Positions 12,759-22,865 of a DNA stretch of 32,537 nt are shown in pieces. The notes under the pieces were generated by a model. That model had not been told where the DNA came from. It did not search any database and saw only the letters and a program-made list of their open reading frames with translations. This stretch comes from a candidate division KSB1 bacterium (GTDB taxonomy: Bacteria > Zhuqueibacterota > JdFR-76 > DREG01). A program made the position numbers and the translations under genes. Location of the stretch: positions 1 to 32,537 of the forward strand of contig JADFJB010000047.1 of assembly GCA_022566355.1 (NCBI GenBank). The letters run 5' to 3'. Numbering within the stretch: position 1 is the stretch's first letter; each line of letters starts with the position of its first letter.

Positions 12759-14060
12759 ATGGTCAATAATTCCGGAAATGATCCAAGGGTAGCTCAACTT
12801 GAAAATGAGGTCGAACGCTTAAAGTCTGCCATTCAAGAATTAACGGTTCTTAATGATTTAGCAATAACAGCCAGCAGTTCATTAGAAGTAAACCAGGTAC
12901 TGGATATCATTGTTGAAAAATCAATTAAAGCAACCAAGGGGGAACAAGGATCGATTCTTCTCTTAACCGAGCAAGAGGACTCGCCTTTAAAGACATTAAT
13001 TCGCCAACAGGATCGCAGTCGTCTATTGACCTATAAAATCGGCACCAACATTACAGGTTGGGTCCTAAAACATCAGCAGCCTCTCATTATCGATGATTTG
13101 TCCACCGATGAAAGGTTTAATACTACTGAACAAGAACGCCAGGAAATTCGATCGGTATTATGTGTACCCATTCGTTTTCGAGCCAAGTTACTTGGCATTA
13201 TCATGGTCACAAATAAAAAAACATTCGAGCCTTTTAGTAAGGGAGATTTGAGATTGATTTCCATCATTGCGGCTCAATCCGGGCAATTGATTCGAAATTC
13301 TCAGCTGCAGCAAGAAACTCTCGAGAAAAAACGGATGGAGCAAGAGCTCGTAATGGCTCGCAACATTCAAAAGGGGTTGTTGCCATTTAAACAACCTGAA
13401 CTCGATGGCCTTGAGATCGCCAGCCATTTCATTGCTGCTGACGAGGTAAGCGGAGATTATTTCGATTATTTTGACCTGGGCGAAAATAGAATTGGAATTG
13501 TTATGGCTGATGTTTCGGGGCATGGAGCATCTTCGGCATTGGTAATGACAATGATTAAAGGAATTCTACAGGCGCTTAAGCGAAGTTATGTCTCAACCGA
13601 TGGCGTCCTGCATGAGTTGAATTTGATTTTGGATCAAACCATTCCAAAAGATATGTTTGTGACGATGATGTATTTGGATTTCGACTCCAATAAAAAAATA
13701 ATGCGTTATTCAAACGCAGGCCATAATCCATTCATACTATACAAAAGTGATTCCAAGAGTTGTGAATTAGTTCAATTTCGATCTCCGGCACTAAGCTTAT
13801 CAAAAGTGGCGGTTTACGAGGAAAAGGAAATTTCTCTCAATCCTGGCGATGTTATTGTCGTATACACGGATGGTGTTACCGAAGCATTTAATGAAAACAA
13901 AGAGATGTTTGAAGAAACCAGACTAGTCCAGGCTATAGAAGAAGTCGCTCAAGAAAAGGCGGGAGCCATTATTGAAAACTTAAAGAAAAGGTTGCAAGAA
14001 TTTATCGGGAATGCCAAGCAAAGTGATGATATTGCCATCATTACGATCAAAGTTAATTGA
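12759..14060 (+). CDS. Second GAF–SpoIIE (PP2C-type) phosphatase
   Basis: A 433-residue paralogue of the protein at 10852. Order: N-terminal coiled coil (VAQLENEVERLKSAIQELTV), GAF domain (about 40–190), helical linker with MARNIQKGLLPF, and SpoIIE catalytic domain (about 215–433). The metal-binding motifs are SGDYFDY, ADVSGHGASSAL, YTDGVTEAF and SDDIAIITI. It is cytosolic. The probable substrates are the STAS proteins encoded on each side. Its stop overlaps the ATPase start (TTGA), indicating translational coupling and a tight functional link with the kinase it opposes. Confidence 0.92.
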   Translation: MVNNSGNDPRVAQLENEVERLKSAIQELTVLNDLAITASSSLEVNQVLDIIVEKSIKATKGEQGSILLLTEQEDSPLKTLIRQQDRSRLLTYKIGTNITGWVLKHQQPLIIDDLSTDERFNTTEQERQEIRSVLCVPIRFRAKLLGIIMVTNKKTFEPFSKGDLRLISIIAAQSGQLIRNSQLQQETLEKKRMEQELVMARNIQKGLLPFKQPELDGLEIASHFIAADEVSGDYFDYFDLGENRIGIVMADVSGHGASSALVMTMIKGILQALKRSYVSTDGVLHELNLILDQTIPKDMFVTMMYLDFDSNKKIMRYSNAGHNPFILYKSDSKSCELVQFRSPALSLSKVAVYEEKEISLNPGDVIVVYTDGVTEAFNENKEMFEETRLVQAIEEVAQEKAGAIIENLKKRLQEFIGNAKQSDDIAIITIKVN

Positions 14061-14506
14061 ACAAACAAGATCGGGCCAAATACCCTGTATTCATGAAAAA
14101 AAGATTTAAAAGACAATTTGCGTCTTTGAATAAAGTTTTTGATTTTGTTAATATATTTATTCAGAAAAATAGCATTGACAAATCGGTTTCATTTACTCTT
14201 AATCTTGCCATTGAAGAATTATTTACAAATATGGTAAAATATAGCAGAGAAAGTATAAGCGATATTTCTATTGATCTTGCCAAAAAAAATAGTACCCTCA
14301 TAGTAACATTAATTGATTTTGATGTCGAACCATTTGATTTGACCAAGTCCAAAGAAGTGGATATCAAAGCTCATTTGAAAGATCGCAGGGTTGGTGGATT
14401 GGGGATTCACCTGGTAAAGAAAATGGTTGACAAAATTGATTATGAGTATAAAAACAGGGAAAGTAAAATCACATTTATAATGAGTTTGGAGAATAACATT
14501 GTTTGA
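14057..14506 (+). CDS. RsbW/SpoIIAB-like anti-sigma kinase (HATPase_c)
   Basis: This protein would bind a sigma factor or other partner and phosphorylate the STAS proteins. It has 149 residues with a GHKL ATPase fold. The N box is AIEELFTNMVKYS (E53, N58), followed by an acidic strand LIDFDVEPFDL and a glycine-rich lid RRVGGLGIHLVKKM (about 110–122). Start: TTG at 14057 overlaps the phosphatase stop by four bases; an ATG at 14093 would remove 12 residues. It overlaps the next STAS gene by eight bases. No classical sigma-B-type gene is adjacent, so its target is unknown. Confidence 0.9.
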   Translation: MNKQDRAKYPVFMKKRFKRQFASLNKVFDFVNIFIQKNSIDKSVSFTLNLAIEELFTNMVKYSRESISDISIDLAKKNSTLIVTLIDFDVEPFDLTKSKEVDIKAHLKDRRVGGLGIHLVKKMVDKIDYEYKNRESKITFIMSLENNIV

Positions 14507-14783
14507 AGCGGAAAAGAGTGATTCAGGTGAGATTCTTCTTGTAGGAAGATTCGATGCCTCTCAAGTAGAAGGAGCCATCAAAGTATTCGATACAATTATG
14601 GAATCTTGTAACATTAACTTTAGCGACTTAGACTATATTTCCAGTGCTGGACTGGGCATTTTACTCAAAACACAAAAACGATTAAGTGAATCCGGTGAAA
14701 AACTAAAATTGACCCATATGAATAAACACATTAAAGATGTCTTTCAGTACGCCGGATTCGATACGATTTTCGAAATTGAATAA
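14499..14783 (+). CDS. Second STAS-domain anti-anti-sigma factor
   Basis: A 94-residue STAS domain with the switch loop DLDYISSAGLGILLKTQ; S48 or S49 is the likely phosphorylation site. It ends in FQYAGFDTIFEIE, typical of the family. The TTG start at 14499 overlaps the kinase gene by eight bases, so the two are almost certainly co-translated. It differs in sequence and in switch residue from the STAS protein at 12387, which suggests that each phosphatase has its own STAS partner converging on one kinase. Confidence 0.9.
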   Translation: MFEAEKSDSGEILLVGRFDASQVEGAIKVFDTIMESCNINFSDLDYISSAGLGILLKTQKRLSESGEKLKLTHMNKHIKDVFQYAGFDTIFEIE

Positions 14784-14918: not shown

Positions 14919-14946
14919 CAACTTTTTTTTATTTCAATTGTAATTC
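14919..14946 (+). promoter_or_regulatory. ECF-type promoter, copy A (sigma factor gene)
   Basis: CAACTTTTTTTT from 14919, with the core AAC at 14920–14922, is followed after 16 bases by TGTA inside AATTGTAATTC (14936–14946). The same two boxes at identical spacing precede the genes at 16377 and 17341. AAC–16 nt–xGTA is the geometry known for ECF promoters such as Bacillus sigma-W (TGAAAC, 16 nt, CGTA). The predicted start of transcription is at or within a few bases of the ATG at 14950. Confidence 0.7.
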
Positions 14947-14949
14947 ACT

Positions 14950-15492
14950 ATGAAAGAACTAGATGATGCGACTCTCATAAGGCAAACACTAGAGGGTCAG
15001 GAGAAACCTTTTGAGATCTTGATTGATCGCTATCAGAAGGTGATTTACAATGTGGCTTTACGAATGCTGAATGATGTCCAGGATGCAGAGGATATAGCCC
15101 AGACGGTTTTTATCAAAGTGTATCAGAATTTGAGAACCTTTGATTTTAAACATAAATTTTTTAACTGGATTTACAGAATGGCAATCAATGAATCATTAAA
15201 TCTTGGAGAGCAACGCAGACGATTTGAAGGGTTGGAAGTCGATTATGCGTCAGAAGACCATTCGCCTGAAAAGAATTATGAAAGCCTTGAATTGTCCAAC
15301 CAGGTTGGATCTTCTTTGATGGGCATTGAACCGGAATATCGAATACTCATTATTCTTAAACATTTGCAAGAGTTGTCCTATGGCGAGATCAGTTATATTC
15401 TTGAAATGTCCGAGAAAAAGGTAAAATCGAGACTATTTACTGCCAGGCATTTGTTAAAAGATGTTTTGGTTAAGCAAGGAATTAAAAAATGA
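14950..15492 (+). CDS. ECF-family RNA polymerase sigma factor
   Basis: A 180-residue sigma factor with two domains. Region 2 (about 15–90) includes IDRYQKVIYNVALRML, the polymerase-binding DAEDIAQTVFIKVYQ and FFNWIYRMAINESLN. Region 4 (about 125–175) includes EYRILIILKHLQELSYGEIS and a helix-turn-helix with MSEKKVKSRLFTARHLL. Length and layout are normal for RpoE-like ECF factors. The ATG lies only three bases after the promoter-like AATTGTAATTC and lacks a Shine–Dalgarno site, so the message may be leaderless. Its stop overlaps the anti-sigma start by four bases. It probably transcribes its own gene and the two membrane-anchored protein genes downstream. Confidence 0.93.
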   Translation: MKELDDATLIRQTLEGQEKPFEILIDRYQKVIYNVALRMLNDVQDAEDIAQTVFIKVYQNLRTFDFKHKFFNWIYRMAINESLNLGEQRRRFEGLEVDYASEDHSPEKNYESLELSNQVGSSLMGIEPEYRILIILKHLQELSYGEISYILEMSEKKVKSRLFTARHLLKDVLVKQGIKK

Positions 15493-16271
15493 TAGATGAT
15501 AAATATCTTCAGCTTATTCATCAGGAAATTGATGGCGAAAATTCTTCGGAAGAAAGTGAAGCCGTGCAGAAATACATGTTGAAAAATGAAGAAGCTAAAA
15601 CGCTCTATTCGGATTTAAACGGTCTTTCTAATTTGCTTAATCAAGTCGATGCAAAAGATCCTTCACCCAATCTTAAGAAAAATATCTTAAATTCAATTCA
15701 ACCTTATAAGAGTTCATCTAGAGAAAAAACGCCAGTAATTGGAGGGCTTATTCAAAACATTAAATCAGTTTTTCAGATCAAATATGGATTTGCTTTTGCC
15801 TCCGGTTTGGCAGCGGGTCTCATTTTGTTTGTATTATTCGGAAATCAAAATCTACAAACTCCAGTAAATGAGATTTCCAATTTTTACGGCACGATGATCC
15901 CAAAAGAGGCGGATAACAATTTACAGTCCGCCTCTTTTTTTGAAATCAACCTGGACCAGGTTACCGGTAGCGTGCATGTAAAAAATGGCAAAGATGTTGT
16001 ATTACTTGAACTACAACTTAATTCATCTCAGAATATTGATGTCTATTTAGGATTTAATAAAGATGAACTTGAATTTAGTGGGTTGTCCAAAGGAGATCAT
16101 CCATCCCGGGGAGCTATTGAATATGATGCTAACCAGGTTAACCTTACAACAAAGGCTGAAAGTAGCACTTTAATCTTGTTTAAACGATTGGCTTCCGATG
16201 CAAAAATAAATTTTAGGCTTTCACAAAACGGCAATACATTGCTTGAGGAAGTAATGACAACTGGAAATTAA
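15489..16271 (+). CDS. Membrane anti-sigma factor of the ECF sigma
   Basis: A 260-residue single-pass membrane protein. The N-terminal cytoplasmic region (1–98) has the helical anti-sigma layout: YLQLIHQEIDGENSSEESEA, then LNGLSNLLNQ. It lacks the HxxxCxxC zinc motif, so it is a zinc-free type. The membrane segment is about 99–118 (YGFAFASGLAAGLILFVLFG). The C-terminal domain (about 120–260) is extracytoplasmic and beta-rich. No enzyme motif is seen there; it may sense the envelope signal. Overlap with the sigma gene (ATGA) gives stoichiometric synthesis. Assignment is from position, topology and N-terminal pattern. Confidence 0.82.
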   Translation: MIDDKYLQLIHQEIDGENSSEESEAVQKYMLKNEEAKTLYSDLNGLSNLLNQVDAKDPSPNLKKNILNSIQPYKSSSREKTPVIGGLIQNIKSVFQIKYGFAFASGLAAGLILFVLFGNQNLQTPVNEISNFYGTMIPKEADNNLQSASFFEINLDQVTGSVHVKNGKDVVLLELQLNSSQNIDVYLGFNKDELEFSGLSKGDHPSRGAIEYDANQVNLTTKAESSTLILFKRLASDAKINFRLSQNGNTLLEEVMTTGN

Positions 16272-16293
16272 AAGTAAAAAAAATGAAACCAGC

Positions 16294-16321
16294 CAACTTT
16301 TTAAAATATGAATTGTAATTC
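16294..16321 (+). promoter_or_regulatory. ECF-type promoter, copy B
   Basis: CAACTTTTT (core AAC at 16295–16297), 16 bases, then TGTA inside AATTGTAATTC (16311–16321). TGAAACC lies just upstream at 16284–16290. Spacing between the boxes is identical to the copies at 14919 and 17267. Transcription should start near 16325, giving a leader of about 50 bases before the gene at 16377. Confidence 0.7.
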
Positions 16322-16324
16322 GCA

Positions 16325-16357
16325 ATGAAAGAGTCACTTTCAAATTTAAGTCTCTAA
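16325..16357 (+). CDS. Possible 10-codon leader peptide
   Basis: Directly after promoter copy B an ATG opens a tiny frame, MKESLSNLSL-stop, ending 19 bases before the next ATG with AGGAGG between them. Its first codons (ATGAAAGA) repeat those of the sigma gene, which sits at the same distance from promoter copy A. It may be only the conserved start region of a duplicated promoter. There is no evidence of translation. Confidence 0.25.
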   Translation: MKESLSNLSL

Positions 16358-16376
16358 TAATAACTAGGAGGTTATC

Positions 16377-17022
16377 ATGAGACGAAGAATTTTATTTATA
16401 ATTGCCGGCGTAGTTTTAGCCCTGATTGTTATTGTTTCTTATTCAGGCTCTCCGGGTAAAGAAGGAGCAACCGGAACGTTTTCTTGTTCATCCCCTGTTG
16501 GACCGGGAGATCCGGAGAAAAAAGAATATTCGCCTGCCACAGCTGATTCTCCAATAAAGGGCGATCGAATCCAGGTTCAATTACTAGTAGGAAATGTCGG
16601 TTATGACGAAGAAGTTGGCGGTTCAGGCTGGCGAGCAACGTTTGAAGTTAAGGTTTTTCTGCCCACTGAAGAAAATATCGCCAACCAAAGTGATATTGAT
16701 TTTTATTCAATAAAAAAAGCAACAAGGCCGTTGTCAGATGACAGTGGTTGGGCTCCTATTGTAGATGCAGAAAGTAATCTATCTGGGTTAACATCTATCG
16801 GTGGAACCTGGTTTTGATAGTCCGGAATCATCGGGTGAGTGGCCAATATGGGTAAAAGCTCGTGTTATAAATAATTATTACCATTTGGACTTTGATATAG
16901 TCGGAAAAACCGAATTCCGTGAAGACGAAGAGAAGCCTACTGCAAGGTGGATTCGAGACCAGGATTATTCTTATGGTGGAGGTAACCGCGTCCTAAGTTC
17001 GGAAGAGTTCATAGTACACTAA
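16377..17022 (+). pseudogene. Membrane-anchored protein of the ECF regulon, split by a frameshift
   Basis: The gene starts at an ATG after AGGAGG and reads MRRRILFIIAGVVLALIVIV, then SYSGSPGKEGATGT. This is one N-terminal hydrophobic anchor followed by an extracytoplasmic domain. The first frame runs 146 residues and stops at 16817. The second frame continues from about 16801 with EPGFDSPESSGEWPIWVKAR, through NNYYHLDFDIVGKTEF, and ends in SSEEFIVH at 17022. Removing one base from GGTGGAACC near 16799–16806 would give one continuous protein of about 215 residues. The lesion is either a real mutation, a sequencing error or, less likely, programmed +1 shifting. I do not recognise the folded domain. 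The N-terminus resembles that of the repeat protein at 17341, and both have the same promoter element. Confidence 0.6.
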
Positions 17023-17076
17023 TACTTACTAGACCAAGATAGGCGTAATAAACAAAAGCTATTAGTTTGAAATATT

Positions 17077-17222
17077 CATAAATTTTCACCGCGAAGGTGC
17101 TAAGACGCAAAGAGTTAGACTAAAAAATGTTTTGGAAACTAGGCAACTATAATTCAGATGATAAATACTTAAAAATTGTTACTTTTCCTCTTGGCGGTCT
17201 TTGCGTCTTTGCGGTTCATGAA
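17077..17222. repeat. Inverted intergenic repeat of the GACGCAAAG type
   Basis: TTCACCGCGAAGG and GACGCAAAG (17104–17112) on the left face CTTTGCGTC (17199–17207) and TTTGCGGTTCATGAAT on the right. The ends are imperfect reverse complements over about 35 bases with an AT-rich centre. Elements of this look are widespread between genes in environmental bacteria. It separates the two anchored-protein genes and leaves promoter copy C intact downstream. Confidence 0.6.
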
Positions 17223-17266
17223 TTATCCAGGTTAACAATTATTTTTTAAAAATATGAAACCTAAAC

Positions 17267-17294
17267 AAACTTTTTTATTTACCAATTGTAATTC
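17267..17294 (+). promoter_or_regulatory. ECF-type promoter, copy C (nonapeptide-repeat gene)
   Basis: AAACTTTTTT (core AAC at 17268–17270), 16 bases, then TGTA inside AATTGTAATTC (17284–17294). TGAAACC is found just upstream (17255–17261). Box sequence and spacing match copies A and B. The leader that follows ends in GGAAGGTTATCATGA, nearly the same as GGAGGTTATCATGA before the gene at 16377. Confidence 0.7.
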
Positions 17295-17340: not shown

Positions 17341-18384
17341 ATGAACCGTAAAGCTTTATTTGCTGGGGCAGCTCTGGTGTTAATTCTTGTGGGGTATTTT
17401 ATTTATTCCGGTTTTCCCCCGGGCGGCGAAGGGGCTGAAGGCACGATTGGCGGTGTAAAGAAGGCGCAAAAATACCGTGTTGGCCAAATAAGTGCCAATG
17501 ATGTTATCCTGACAGATACCGAAATCCAGAAATTGTTGCAAAATGACAAAATTCAGGAATTGCTCAATGACGATAGCTTTCGTAAGGTCCTGGCAAATGC
17601 GAGCTTTCAAGAGGTGCTGGCGAATGTCAGTCTTCAGGAGGCTTTGGCCAATGTCAGTTTCCGAGAGGCACTAGCAAATGTCAGCTTTCGTGAGGTCCTG
17701 GCGAATGCAAGTCTTCAGGAGGCCTTAGCAAATGCCAGTTTTCGAGAAGCCCTAGCAAATGCCAACATTCGAGAAGTCCTGGCAAATGCCAGCTTTCGTG
17801 AGGTCCTGGCGAATGCCAGTCTTCGGGAGGCCTTTGCAAATGCCAGCTTTCGAGAAGTTCTGGCAAATGCCAGCTTTCGAGAGGTCTTAGCAAACGCCAG
17901 CTTTCAAGAGGCTTTAGCGAATGTTAGCTTTCGAGAGGCCCTGGCCAATGCCAGCTTCCGAGATGCTTTAGTAGATGCGAGCCTGAGAGAGGCATTAGTA
18001 GACGCGACTCTGAGAGAAGCTCTAGAAAATGCCAGCTTTCGAGAGGCCCTGACCAGTGCCAGCTTCCGAGATGCTTTAGCAAATGCTAGCTTTAGAGAAG
18101 CCCTGGCCAATGCCAGCTTCCGAGAGGCTTTAGCAAACGCTGGCTTTCGAGAGGCCCTGGCCAATGCCAGCTTCCGAGATGCTTTAGCAAATGCTAGCTT
18201 TCGAGAGGCCTTGGCCAATGCCAGCTTCCGAGATGCTTTAGCAAATGCTAGCTTTCGAGAGGCCCTGGCCAATGCCAGCTTCCGAGAAGCTCTAGCAAAT
18301 GCTAGTTTCCGAGAGGCCTTAACCAACGCTAGCTTCCGGGAGGCACTGGTAAATGCAAGCCTTCGTGAGGCAATCACAAAATAG
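17341..18384 (+). CDS. Membrane-anchored protein of 30 tandem nonapeptide repeats
   Basis: The protein has 347 residues. Residues 1–22 are a hydrophobic N-terminal anchor or uncleaved signal. IYSGFPPGGEGAEGTIGG (21–38) is a motif shared with the upstream protein. A short acidic linker (39–75) follows. Residues 76–345 are exactly 30 nine-residue repeats with no insertions, consensus ANASFREAL, and the protein ends in TK. Within the repeat, S-F-R-E fits a helix-capping box (Ser N-cap, Glu three on) and F, A/V and L are hydrophobic. A chain of short capped helices is therefore possible. This is not the pentapeptide-repeat pattern. Repeats 16–19 are more divergent. GGAAGG precedes the ATG. Promoter copy C and the neighbours place it in the ECF regulon. 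Function unknown; a structural or interaction scaffold at the envelope is a guess. Confidence 0.85.
   Translation: MNRKALFAGAALVLILVGYFIYSGFPPGGEGAEGTIGGVKKAQKYRVGQISANDVILTDTEIQKLLQNDKIQELLNDDSFRKVLANASFQEVLANVSLQEALANVSFREALANVSFREVLANASLQEALANASFREALANANIREVLANASFREVLANASLREAFANASFREVLANASFREVLANASFQEALANVSFREALANASFRDALVDASLREALVDATLREALENASFREALTSASFRDALANASFREALANASFREALANAGFREALANASFRDALANASFREALANASFRDALANASFREALANASFREALANASFREALTNASFREALVNASLREAITK
17566..18375 (+). repeat. 27-bp coding tandem repeat array (30 units)
   Basis: The DNA repeats with a 27-base period, typical unit GCAAATGCCAGCTTTCGAGAGGCC plus CTG. Toward the 3' end a higher-order 54-base period appears: GCCAATGCCAGCTTCCGAGA starts at 18106, 18160, 18214 and 18268. 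This indicates recent duplication of two-unit blocks. Because the period is a multiple of three, stop-free shadow frames also appear on the opposite strand. Confidence 0.9.
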
Positions 18385-18727: not shown

Positions 18728-21697
18728 ATGAAAACCAAATCAAAAATTCCTCTATTTCCGCTTTTCATTCTACTTTTGTTTGCCAATTTTGAACTTCCTG
18801 CACAATTACATTCACTACAAACAAAGAATTTACAGTTAATTTATTTAGGTAAAACACATGAATATATTGTATCTCATTTAGCGCGTTGTTTTGAGAATTC
18901 GTTGAGGTTCCATCGTCATCTTTTTAAGTATACTCCAAGTGAAAAATTCACAGTGTTTTTGCAAGACTTCAGTGATTATCATAATGCAGGAGCCACGTCT
19001 GTGCCACGTAATTTCATCAAGATGGATCTCGCACCCGCCAATTATGTTTTTGAAACTATACCAGCTAATGAAAGAATGAACTGGACGATGAGTCATGAAT
19101 TAGTCCATATTGTTACAACCGATCAAACTAGCGGCAGTGACAAGTTTTTTCGTTCACTTTTTTTCGGCAAGGTGTGGCCGTCTGAAGATAATCCGGCTTC
19201 AATATTCTATTCTTATCTCACAAGTCCGCGCAACCTTTCTCCACGCTGGTATCATGAAGGCTTAGCTGTTTTTTGGGAGACCTGGATGGCGGGTGGTTTG
19301 GGACGGGTGCTCGGCGCTTATGATGAAATGGTGTTCAGGTCCATGGTTCGTGATGGAAGCTATATATATGACGTAGTGGGTTTAGAGTCGGAAGGCACAA
19401 CCATCGATTTTCAGGTAGCGGCAAACTCCTATCTTTACGGAACCCGGTTCATCAGTTATCTTGCCTATCAGTATGGCCCTGAGAGAGTATTAGAATGGGC
19501 TTCTCGAAAAAAAGGCAGCAAGGCCTATTTTGCTTCTCAGTTCAAAAAAGTCTATGGAGTAGGGCTTAACGATGAATGGACTCGCTGGATTAAATGGGAG
19601 CGTGAATGGCAGCAAGTCAATCTCGATTCAATCCGCTTAAACCCCACAACGCACTTTCGTCCAATCTCTAAAAGGGCTCTTGGTTCTATTTCGCGTACGT
19701 TTTATGATTCAAGCAGCCGAAATCTCTTTGCTGCTGTACGATATCCAGGGCAAGTTGCCCACATCGCTGCTATTGATATCCAAACTGGCGCAATTGATAA
19801 AATATGCGATGTAAAAGGTCCTGCTTTATATTATACTTCTTCCCTGGCTTACGATCGAACCGAAGGTTTAATCTTTTATACTACGGATAACAATAGCTGG
19901 CGGGATTTGAATGTGGTTGATATCAAAACGGGTAAATCGAAGAGACTTATGCAAGATGTTAGAACCGGCGACTTGACCTTCAATCTGGTGGATAAGTCAA
20001 TCTGGGGTGTTCGCCACTATAATGGCATATCAACCTTAGTCAGAATCCCGCATCCGTATAAAGAGTGGAACCAGATCTATTCCTTTCCTTATGGAAAAGA
20101 TATTTTTGATATAGATATTTCACCCGATGGCTCAACGGTTACTGCTGCGCTTGTTGAAATTACTGGCAAGCAAAAGTTGATTAAGATGGATGCCGCTAAA
20201 TTGATGGGTGGTGAAACAACGTATGAAGTTCTGTTTGATTTCGAGAACAGCTTGCCTGCGAACTTTGTTTTTTCGCCGGATGGCAGGTATCTCTACGGAT
20301 CGTCTTATTACTCTGGTGTTTCAAATATCTACCGATTTGATTTCGAAGAAGAGGATATGGATATCCTCAGCAATTGTGAATCAGGCTTTTTCAGGCCTGT
20401 ACCTGTTTCCGAGGATTCGTTAATTGTTATGCGTTATACAGGAGACGGATTTGTCCCGGTTATGATTGCCATCGAGCCACTTGAAAATGTGAGCGCCATT
20501 AACTTCTTAGGAAACGAGATTGTGAAAAAGCATCCGATTGTCAAAGACTGGCTTCTCGATCCTCCATCATCAATAAATATTGATTCTTTAACTACATACC
20601 ACGGCAAGTATAATTCTTTTAGTAATATAGGTCTTACTTCAGCGTACCCCATCGTTGAAGGGTACAAGGATTTTACGGCAATGGGCATGCACTTCAATTA
20701 TTCGGATTTACTTGGAATTACTGGTTTCGAAATTACTTCATCTTACTCATCAAGTCAAAATTTGCCTAATAACGAAAGGTTACATTTAGGTGTTAAATTT
20801 CATCACTTCAATTGGCAATTTAACGCGACCTACAATGGCGCTGATTTCTATGATTTGGCAGGACCAACTAAAACCAGCCGTAAGGGGTATTCTTTGGGTT
20901 TACAATATAACAAGAATCTACTATATGACAAGCCCAAGACTTTGGATTTGAGTATTGGTTTAACCAGATATAGCGGTTTAGAAAGACTGCCTGACTTTCA
21001 GAACGTAACCGCGACATTTAACAAGCTGTTGTTAGGAAGAGCAAGTTTAGATTACAGCTATGTGCGTAAATCACTTGGCGCTGTAGACGATGAAAAAGGG
21101 TTCAAATGGCAGCTTATCTCCCAGGGAAATTATGTTAATTCGGAGATATTTCCTCGAGTTCATATGAACTTAGATTTGGGGTTGCCACTTCCTGTTGGTC
21201 ATTCTTCTATCTGGTTCAGAAGTTCAATAGGTCACTCTTTTGGAAATGAGGATAATCCATTTGCAAATTACTTTTTCGGTGGTTTCGGTAACAACTGGGT
21301 GGATTATTTAACAGAAAAACGGTATAGGGAATATTATAGTTTTCCGGGAGTGGGCCTCAACGAATTTGGCGGAAAAAATTACGCAAAATTTATGATGGAA
21401 TGGAACTTACCTCCGATAAGATTTCGCCGAGTCGGTTTTACCAGTTTTTATTTAAGGTGGGCGCGCATCGCTCTTTTTTCTTCAGCAATCAGAACAAATC
21501 TTGATGGCGTTAAAGCAGGTGACCCCCCACCTCAATTTGGCGCTCAAAGAAGCCTATTAAATTTAGGTGGCCAATTAGATTTTCGCATTGTCATGTTCTC
21601 GCGTCTAAAATCCACATTTTCTATTGGATACGCTGCGGCTTTTGAAAAAGACCAGAGTTTGTCCGATGAATTCATGATTTCGCTGAAGATATTGTAA
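18728..21697 (+). CDS. HEXXH peptidase–propeller–outer-membrane-barrel fusion protein
   Basis: A 989-residue envelope protein. A signal peptide (about 1–25, ending LPAQ) is followed by a gluzincin-like peptidase domain with HELVH (H123, E124, H127) and a third ligand E177 in WYHEGLAVFWE. Residues about 310–610 form a TolB-like beta-propeller, shown by repeated 'SPDGSTVTAAL', 'FSPDGRYLYGSS' and DI/D-type blades. From about 640 to the C-terminus there are alternating strands ending in FMISLKIL, like a surface-antigen or Omp85-type beta-barrel. The metal site is intact, so proteolysis at the cell surface or in the periplasm is expected. Substrate unknown. It is a single gene with its own terminator. 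Confidence 0.82.
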   Translation: MKTKSKIPLFPLFILLLFANFELPAQLHSLQTKNLQLIYLGKTHEYIVSHLARCFENSLRFHRHLFKYTPSEKFTVFLQDFSDYHNAGATSVPRNFIKMDLAPANYVFETIPANERMNWTMSHELVHIVTTDQTSGSDKFFRSLFFGKVWPSEDNPASIFYSYLTSPRNLSPRWYHEGLAVFWETWMAGGLGRVLGAYDEMVFRSMVRDGSYIYDVVGLESEGTTIDFQVAANSYLYGTRFISYLAYQYGPERVLEWASRKKGSKAYFASQFKKVYGVGLNDEWTRWIKWEREWQQVNLDSIRLNPTTHFRPISKRALGSISRTFYDSSSRNLFAAVRYPGQVAHIAAIDIQTGAIDKICDVKGPALYYTSSLAYDRTEGLIFYTTDNNSWRDLNVVDIKTGKSKRLMQDVRTGDLTFNLVDKSIWGVRHYNGISTLVRIPHPYKEWNQIYSFPYGKDIFDIDISPDGSTVTAALVEITGKQKLIKMDAAKLMGGETTYEVLFDFENSLPANFVFSPDGRYLYGSSYYSGVSNIYRFDFEEEDMDILSNCESGFFRPVPVSEDSLIVMRYTGDGFVPVMIAIEPLENVSAINFLGNEIVKKHPIVKDWLLDPPSSINIDSLTTYHGKYNSFSNIGLTSAYPIVEGYKDFTAMGMHFNYSDLLGITGFEITSSYSSSQNLPNNERLHLGVKFHHFNWQFNATYNGADFYDLAGPTKTSRKGYSLGLQYNKNLLYDKPKTLDLSIGLTRYSGLERLPDFQNVTATFNKLLLGRASLDYSYVRKSLGAVDDEKGFKWQLISQGNYVNSEIFPRVHMNLDLGLPLPVGHSSIWFRSSIGHSFGNEDNPFANYFFGGFGNNWVDYLTEKRYREYYSFPGVGLNEFGGKNYAKFMMEWNLPPIRFRRVGFTSFYLRWARIALFSSAIRTNLDGVKAGDPPPQFGAQRSLLNLGGQLDFRIVMFSRLKSTFSIGYAAAFEKDQSLSDEFMISLKIL

Positions 21698-21839: not shown

Positions 21840-22865
21840 TTGAACACTCCAATTCAAGATCTACTCCGTATCTCTTTTAGCCTGCTTCCGGTTTTTTTCT
21901 TCCTTCTTGGGTTGATTTTAATCGATAGTTATAAACTAGTTAAACTACAAGCTGTTTTAATTTCTATAATCGCAGGCTGTGGCGCTGCCTTGGGCTCATT
22001 TCTCATAAACAGTTCTATGCTGGATTTTCTAGCAATAGAATTCAAAACCTATAGCCGCTATTGCGCTCCGATCGTAGAAGAATCCTTAAAAGCTGCATTC
22101 CTGATTTATTTGATCCGAAAAAATAAGATGGGCTTTACGGTTGACACCGCCATTCATGGTTTCGCCATTGGCGCGGGATTTGCATTTTTGGAAAATATCT
22201 ATTACCTGCGGGCGATGTCTGATGCAACACTCATGACCTGGATTATTCGAGGTTTTGGCACTGCGATTATGCATGGCGGAGTAACTGCAATATTCGGCAT
22301 CATTGCCAAAAGCTTTCACGATCAACAATCTTCAATAAAATATTTTGCGATTTTACCCGCATTCGTTTTAGCAATCGGTATTCATTCACTCTTTAATCAT
22401 TTCTTTTTAACGCCTTTGCAATCGACGTTATTATTATTATTCGTTTTCCCAATAATAATCAGCTTGGTCTATTCCCAAAGCGAAAAATCAACCCAAAACT
22501 GGCTCGGTGTTGGATTCGATACCGACCAGGAATTGCTGGAGTTGATTACTTCTGGGAATCTATCCGAAACGAAAATCGGCCGTTATTTACATTCTTTGCG
22601 GGACAAATTCCCGGGTGAAATTGTGGTGGATATGCTGTGTTTTTTACGTATCCATTTGGAATTATCGATACGGGCAAAAGGTATTTTAATGATGCAAGAA
22701 TCGGGATTCAAACCAGCGCCAGATCCAGAAATAAAAGCAAAGTTCAAAGAATTAAAATATTTGGAAAAAAGTATTGGCCCAATAGGACATCTGGCAATCT
22801 TACCATTTATGCATACGAGTAATCGCAATCTCTGGCAGTTACATATGTTGGGAGGTAACAAGTAA
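21840..22865 (+). CDS. PrsW-family intramembrane metalloprotease
   Basis: A 341-residue polytopic membrane protein. The N-terminal two-thirds contains several hydrophobic helices. The family motifs are EESLK (E80, E81), H106 in DTAIHGFAIGAGF, E118–N119 in FLENIYYL, and H145 in TAIMHGG. In Bacillus PrsW cleaves an anti-sigma factor. A similar role in releasing an ECF sigma here is possible because the ECF pair lies 6 kb away, but it is unproved. The last ~110 residues form a cytosolic tail. The start is the TTG at 21840; no clear ribosome site is seen, but a later start would cut into the first membrane helix. Confidence 0.85.
   Translation: MNTPIQDLLRISFSLLPVFFFLLGLILIDSYKLVKLQAVLISIIAGCGAALGSFLINSSMLDFLAIEFKTYSRYCAPIVEESLKAAFLIYLIRKNKMGFTVDTAIHGFAIGAGFAFLENIYYLRAMSDATLMTWIIRGFGTAIMHGGVTAIFGIIAKSFHDQQSSIKYFAILPAFVLAIGIHSLFNHFFLTPLQSTLLLLFVFPIIISLVYSQSEKSTQNWLGVGFDTDQELLELITSGNLSETKIGRYLHSLRDKFPGEIVVDMLCFLRIHLELSIRAKGILMMQESGFKPAPDPEIKAKFKELKYLEKSIGPIGHLAILPFMHTSNRNLWQLHMLGGNK

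Follow-up and report, generated by a model that had tools for sequence, protein, structure and literature searches.

The window, by which we mean the whole 32,537-nucleotide stretch of DNA analysed here from a candidate division KSB1 bacterium, encodes a SigW-like ECF sigma factor of 180 amino acids (14950..15492) on the forward (+) strand, as are all of the window's genes and sites described below. The protein consists of regions 2 and 4 only, as is typical of ECF factors (Pfam Sigma70_r2, 1.4e-15; r4_2, 6.3e-9; TIGR02937, 92.8 bits against a cut-off of 42.9), and the profile of its orthologues identified SigW (5wuq_A) as the nearest among the solved structures (1.9e-40). It scored 113.6 bits with the NCBIfam SigW equivalog, whose curated cut-off is 209, and judged by these comparisons it is a relative of SigW and not a SigW orthologue. 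The next gene overlaps the sigma stop codon and encodes a putative membrane anti-sigma factor of 260 amino acids (15489..16271), with a profile match to RsiW (5wuq_C, 1.6e-6). In an AlphaFold2 model (mean pLDDT 75), this protein has a four-helix N-terminal part, a transmembrane (TM) segment at about residues 98-120 and a beta-sandwich C-terminal domain. The gene overlap, the RsiW match and the modelled helical N-terminal domain with its TM segment mark it as the predicted partner of the sigma factor. A fold comparison was uninformative, as the matches were all to generic beta-sandwiches and had low TM-scores, and Pfam searches with members of the anti-sigma family gave nothing convincing.

Two genes for membrane-anchored proteins follow, which we refer to as targets 1 and 2. 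Target 1 is a TM-anchored protein (16377..16817) whose reading frame is broken near 16800; it seems to be frameshifted there, as the frame stops at 16817 and a different one could plausibly carry the protein on to about 17022, and a partial paralogue is present at G000:C166 (L203). Target 2 (17341..18384) is a single-TM protein with a conserved GTIGGVKKA..YR motif and nonapeptide repeats. The YSG...EGA.GT N-terminus that the initial annotation had noticed in both proteins is real. Further downstream are an MA-type peptidase with propeller-like repeats (18728..21697; weak matches to both Peptidase_MA_2 and PD40) and a PrsW intramembrane protease (21840..22865). The latter was assigned to the PrsW family by PF13367 (9.7e-22) and its EExxK and FAxxEN motifs, and scored 30.8 against the cut-off of 225 for the NCBIfam PrsW equivalog. 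Upstream, in the same gene run, we found a GAF-SpoIIE phosphatase (12759..14060; PF07228, 4.9e-51), an RsbW-like HATPase (14093..14506, with a likely ATG at 14093; PF13581, 4.3e-15) and a STAS protein resembling RsbV and SpoIIAA (14499..14783; PF13466, 2.5e-8; TIGR00377, 1.2e-12, below the cut-off). The window thus encodes together a kinase, a STAS antagonist and a PP2C phosphatase, the gene set of partner switching.

We then examined the bipartite element that the initial annotation had described upstream of the sigma gene and both targets. It was indeed present at 14920..14946, 16295..16321 and 17268..17294, and reads AACTTTTT-N8-AATTGTAATTC, or AAC-N17-GTA (the same as AAC-N16-TGTA), with the spacing and the 11-mer AATTGTAATTC identical in all three sites. 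At the first site, the -35 AAC(TTTTT) and the -10 GTA are separated by N17, and the sigma ATG lies 7 nt past GTA. The second precedes a leader of about 50 nt with AGGAGG, and the third shows a pyrimidine-purine step at +8/+9. In the target promoters of G000 (two), G001, G046 and G035, a GAAAC was also seen about 10-12 bases upstream of AAC, which is mostly missing from the sigma promoters.

The search pattern of the initial annotation carried an N11 gap between the two blocks, and patterns with N9-13 found no match, as the true gap is N8. With N8, the genome scan that it had proposed gave three exact matches in the 4,622,658-base genome, all of them inside 2.4 kb of the window, in support of the compact regulon that it had suggested, while a reversed control element gave none in the same genome. 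When up to three mismatches were allowed, only the same three sites were found in the window; shuffled windows contained 0.06 such sites on average, and no shuffle had three. The 11-mer alone with one mismatch was unexceptional (3 found, 2.5 expected), and the significance thus rests on the bipartite element at its fixed spacing. Genome-wide, up to three mismatches gave 22 sites against 12 for the reversed control, most of which are attributable to chance. A site with two mismatches on C14 was rejected, as it lies about 390 bases from the nearest same-strand gene start and has no AAC. Scans for sigma-70 promoters and terminators gave no excess over shuffles.

The first bases downstream of the site at 16295..16321 (ATGAAAGA) are similar to the start of the sigma gene. 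Since this target site also has bases in common with the beginning of the sigma coding sequence (AATTGTAATTCGCAATGAAAGA), it may have been copied from there, and the repeated elements could represent a recent, functionless duplication of the sigma upstream region. However, the blocks and their spacing have been kept despite divergence of the spacer and flanks, both in this genome and across phyla, and this cross-phylum conservation already contradicts such an origin, to which we give practically no credence. Within-locus similarity between the sigma and target sequences 3' of the promoter was not significant.

Thirteen genomes of the same phylum, including that of the window, have a sigma orthologue with AAC-N17-GTA just 5' of its start codon. 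Most of these genomes carry another copy ahead of the next gene; where that gene closely follows the anti-sigma gene, the copy is missing. The 15-base consensus CCAACTTTT-N10-ATTGTA had 12 exact matches in 59 genomes: 10 at the loci of the sigma factor, one before a decayed sigma copy (G053) and one inside an unrelated gene (G005). The G053 site (G053:C1:53961-53985) is followed by a decayed second sigma copy, ALVRQW*EGNQEYFGAL (cf. TLVRQCLEGQRDAYGAL in G057). In the rearranged module of G016, the second site precedes a run of response regulator, PrsW, kinase and STAS genes and not the repeat gene, indicating that the element tracks the sigma factor and not one particular target. At three sigma/anti-sigma loci of the phylum that are less closely related, no N17 site was found; one of them has the elements at N19.

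A scan of species genomes widened the comparison to 80 sigma relatives, six of which lie on contigs already included in the phylum set. The 80 belong, among other groups, to Ignavibacteriota, Bacteroidota, Zixibacteria, Eisenbacteria, Latescibacterota, Krumholzibacteriota, Aminicenantes, Calditrichota and Pseudomonadota. AAC-N17-GTA (score of at least 7) was detected upstream of 73 of the 80 sigma genes and 28 of the 69 next, repeat-protein genes, as against 1 of 504 other genes of the same loci; these relatives are mostly metagenome assemblies and phylogenetically related, and the counts are not independent events. The survey of related genomes advocated in the initial annotation thus speaks for the promoter reading, with consensus hits almost exclusively at loci of this sigma factor. 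No other spacing between 12 and 22 occurred at more than two loci, except for N21 at the sigma genes (11), which we attribute to an artefact of GTATGTA overlaps. The search demanded AAC and GTA, whose 100% conservation is thus by construction; the conservation of the flanking CC, TTTT and T does not stem from the search. The spacer is fixed in length and not conserved in sequence. Among orthologous loci held out and found later with an anti-sigma profile, all four sigma genes (L234, L235, L236 and L239) carry the site with a 3-nt gap to the start codon, and four target genes (L234, L235, L236 and L241) have it as well.

AAC at -35, GT at -10 and rigid spacing are the features of an ECF promoter, and the fixed AAC-N17-GTA across the sigma relatives and the held-out loci strongly favours the promoter reading of the initial annotation. 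Beside the direct observations of the sequence, its fixed spacing, its restriction to the locus genome-wide and its conservation with the sigma family across phyla, we infer that the three elements very probably serve as ECF -35/-10 promoters read by the SigW-like sigma factor of 14950. With 18 sigma-like matches in the genome, cross-recognition could occur in principle, and the element might instead be bound as an operator by some other DNA-binding regulator or be a promoter for another ECF sigma factor. The element nevertheless tracks this sigma family across phyla, its exact consensus is missing from nearly all genomes without that sigma factor, and AAC/GTA with their spacing agree with ECF geometry; we thus regard recognition by another regulator or another sigma factor as highly unlikely.

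To locate the transcription start, we analysed the bases that follow GTA. A pyrimidine-purine step at +8/+9 was found in 25 of the 34 target sites (0.74, against 0.25 expected and 0.41 at the next highest position) and in 8 of the 10 sigma sites with a gap of at least 13 nt to the start codon. As an independent signature, the step points to a start 9 nt past GTA, and transcription is thus likely to begin 8-9 nt past GTA, in line with the SigH promoter, whose GTT -10 element has its master base at -9 (PMC6411747). The start codon of the sigma gene lies exactly 3 nt past GTA in 53 of the 71 classed relatives, from many phyla, and the sigma tree requires eight changes of gap class. With this gap, transcription is predicted to start about 5 nt downstream of the start codon. 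A Shine-Dalgarno sequence was not above random at these genes (0.17 against 0.24), whereas it was frequent at those of the repeat proteins (0.75) and STAS proteins (0.69).

An element so close to a start codon that lacks a Shine-Dalgarno sequence might work as RNA in the leader, for example by controlling translation of the adjoining sigma gene. At the targets, however, it mostly lies about 50-80 nt 5' of the start codon, where a normal Shine-Dalgarno sequence is found, and its two short blocks around an unconserved spacer of fixed length, as well as the start-site signature downstream, have the look of an ECF promoter; a role in RNA accordingly appears very improbable to us. With the element taken as a promoter, the 3-nt gap and the missing Shine-Dalgarno sequence imply either a leaderless mRNA that starts unusually near the -10 element, or a transcript of the anti-sigma and downstream genes that lacks the sigma start codon. 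In the latter case, the promoter of these relatives would fire inside codon 2-3 of the sigma gene and raise the mRNA of the anti-sigma factor and target but not that of the sigma factor itself. We put this self-excluding arrangement, which would be widely conserved and give negative instead of positive feedback, forward as a tentative and rather doubtful possibility, under which the sigma factor would be supplied by read-through from the kinase and STAS genes. The leaderless mRNA would have to begin just 4 nt past the -10 triplet, which is equally unusual. The gap is 7 nt in the window, 6 nt in a sister genome and 13 nt in one KSB1 family, and a leaderless or short-leader sigma mRNA is possible in these cases. 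The autoregulation claimed in the initial annotation thus holds up for the anti-sigma factor and the targets. The sigma start codon, however, lies at the predicted transcription start or, in most relatives, upstream of it; in the latter, the sigma factor itself may not be made from this promoter, and simple positive autoregulation is hard to reconcile with the position of the codon. The fixed distance from the -10 element to the start codon raises the question of whether an autoregulated sigma factor makes more of itself.

In Streptomyces, the ECF sigma factor SigR amplifies its response through two isoforms, SigR and the unstable SigR' (PMC4921905). The present family would differ in that the start codon itself falls outside the transcript in most relatives, and no convincing second start codon was seen.

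On the promoter reading, the sigma-anti-sigma complex would reside at the membrane until a disturbance of the envelope causes the site-1 protease PrsW (21840), possibly along with the MA peptidase, to cut the anti-sigma factor. The freed sigma factor would then transcribe the sigma/anti-sigma genes and those of the two membrane-anchored proteins, one of which is the hypervariable-repeat protein. With a start 8-9 nt past GTA, the sigma AUG of the window would be at the very 5' end of a leaderless mRNA, while the two target mRNAs would have leaders of about 50 nt with a Shine-Dalgarno sequence. The RsbW-like kinase, STAS protein and SpoIIE phosphatase encoded upstream probably add a phosphorylation-dependent input.

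The Bacillus sigma-W promoter is TGAAAC-N16-CGTA, and the AAC-N16-NGTA geometry cited for it in the initial annotation is shared here. The likeness to the Bacillus subtilis SigW-RsiW-PrsW system extends to the best solved matches of the sigma factor and of the anti-sigma profile, SigW and RsiW, and to the PrsW of the module. In contrast to that system, the genes are clustered here with those of RsbW-like kinase, STAS and SpoIIE proteins, the anti-sigma factor has an outside beta-sandwich, the promoter is CCAACTTTT...TTGTA, and the regulon found is the locus itself only. E. coli RpoE-RseA is likewise an autoregulated ECF sigma factor with a membrane anti-sigma factor destroyed by proteolysis and the same AAC class of -35 element, but it has a large regulon, other proteases (DegS and RseP) and a different -10 element, which is of the GTC type. 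As in the RsbW/RsbV/RsbU partner switching of SigB, the HATPase, STAS and SpoIIE phosphatase genes are adjacent and conserved, whereas the sigma factor here belongs to the ECF type and has a membrane anti-sigma factor of its own. AAC/CGT elements, a co-transcribed anti-sigma factor and autoregulation are known hallmarks of ECF systems (PMC8103513); the novelty here lies in the module's breadth and in where the start codon is placed.

The initial annotation had missed this larger module with its kinase, STAS protein, peptidase and PrsW. Most of the 80 relatives share it, with genes for an RsbW-like kinase, a STAS protein, a SigW-like sigma factor, an RsiW-like anti-sigma factor, an anchored hypervariable-repeat ('TN') protein, an MA-type peptidase and PrsW; kinase and STAS protein are conserved, and fused in one relative (L156). 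In the literature searched, with the main ECF classification and most subscription papers outside our reach, no description of the combined module was found. The module offers a testable promoter specificity for a sigma family of many uncultured phyla and Gammaproteobacteria, and it would tie a surface-repeat protein that varies rapidly to two signalling logics at the envelope, membrane anti-sigma proteolysis and RsbW/STAS phosphorylation.

The TN proteins combine a single TM segment and a conserved GTIGG..KYR motif with repeats particular to each lineage. A G[TA]-hydrophobic motif shortly past the TM segment is common to both anti-sigma and TN proteins: it lies within 45 residues in 65 of 78 and 58 of 59 proteins, respectively (shuffles, 0.18), mostly at 10-20 residues in the former and 5-15 in the latter. 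In three distant lineages, an anti-sigma domain and a TN match are encoded in one reading frame (L148:6534-8048, L199:5213-6025 and, oriented, L239 1582-2640), which suggests that the two parts work together. Together with the G[TA] motif, these cases may point to a protease site common to both proteins and to the repeat protein acting as a sensor, as one possible reading.

While the TM segment and GTIGG..KYR are kept, the tandem repeat differs in nearly every lineage (DADGGKR, NLDAKTVDAVK, REALANASF and others), as seen in L124-L201 (for example, L132:3651-4445 and L171:2192-2878) and in the window at 17341-18384. The same genome also contains a second pair of repeat protein and MA peptidase, without the promoter element, at G000:C30:31421-32362 (L064/L081), where the match includes one TAG.
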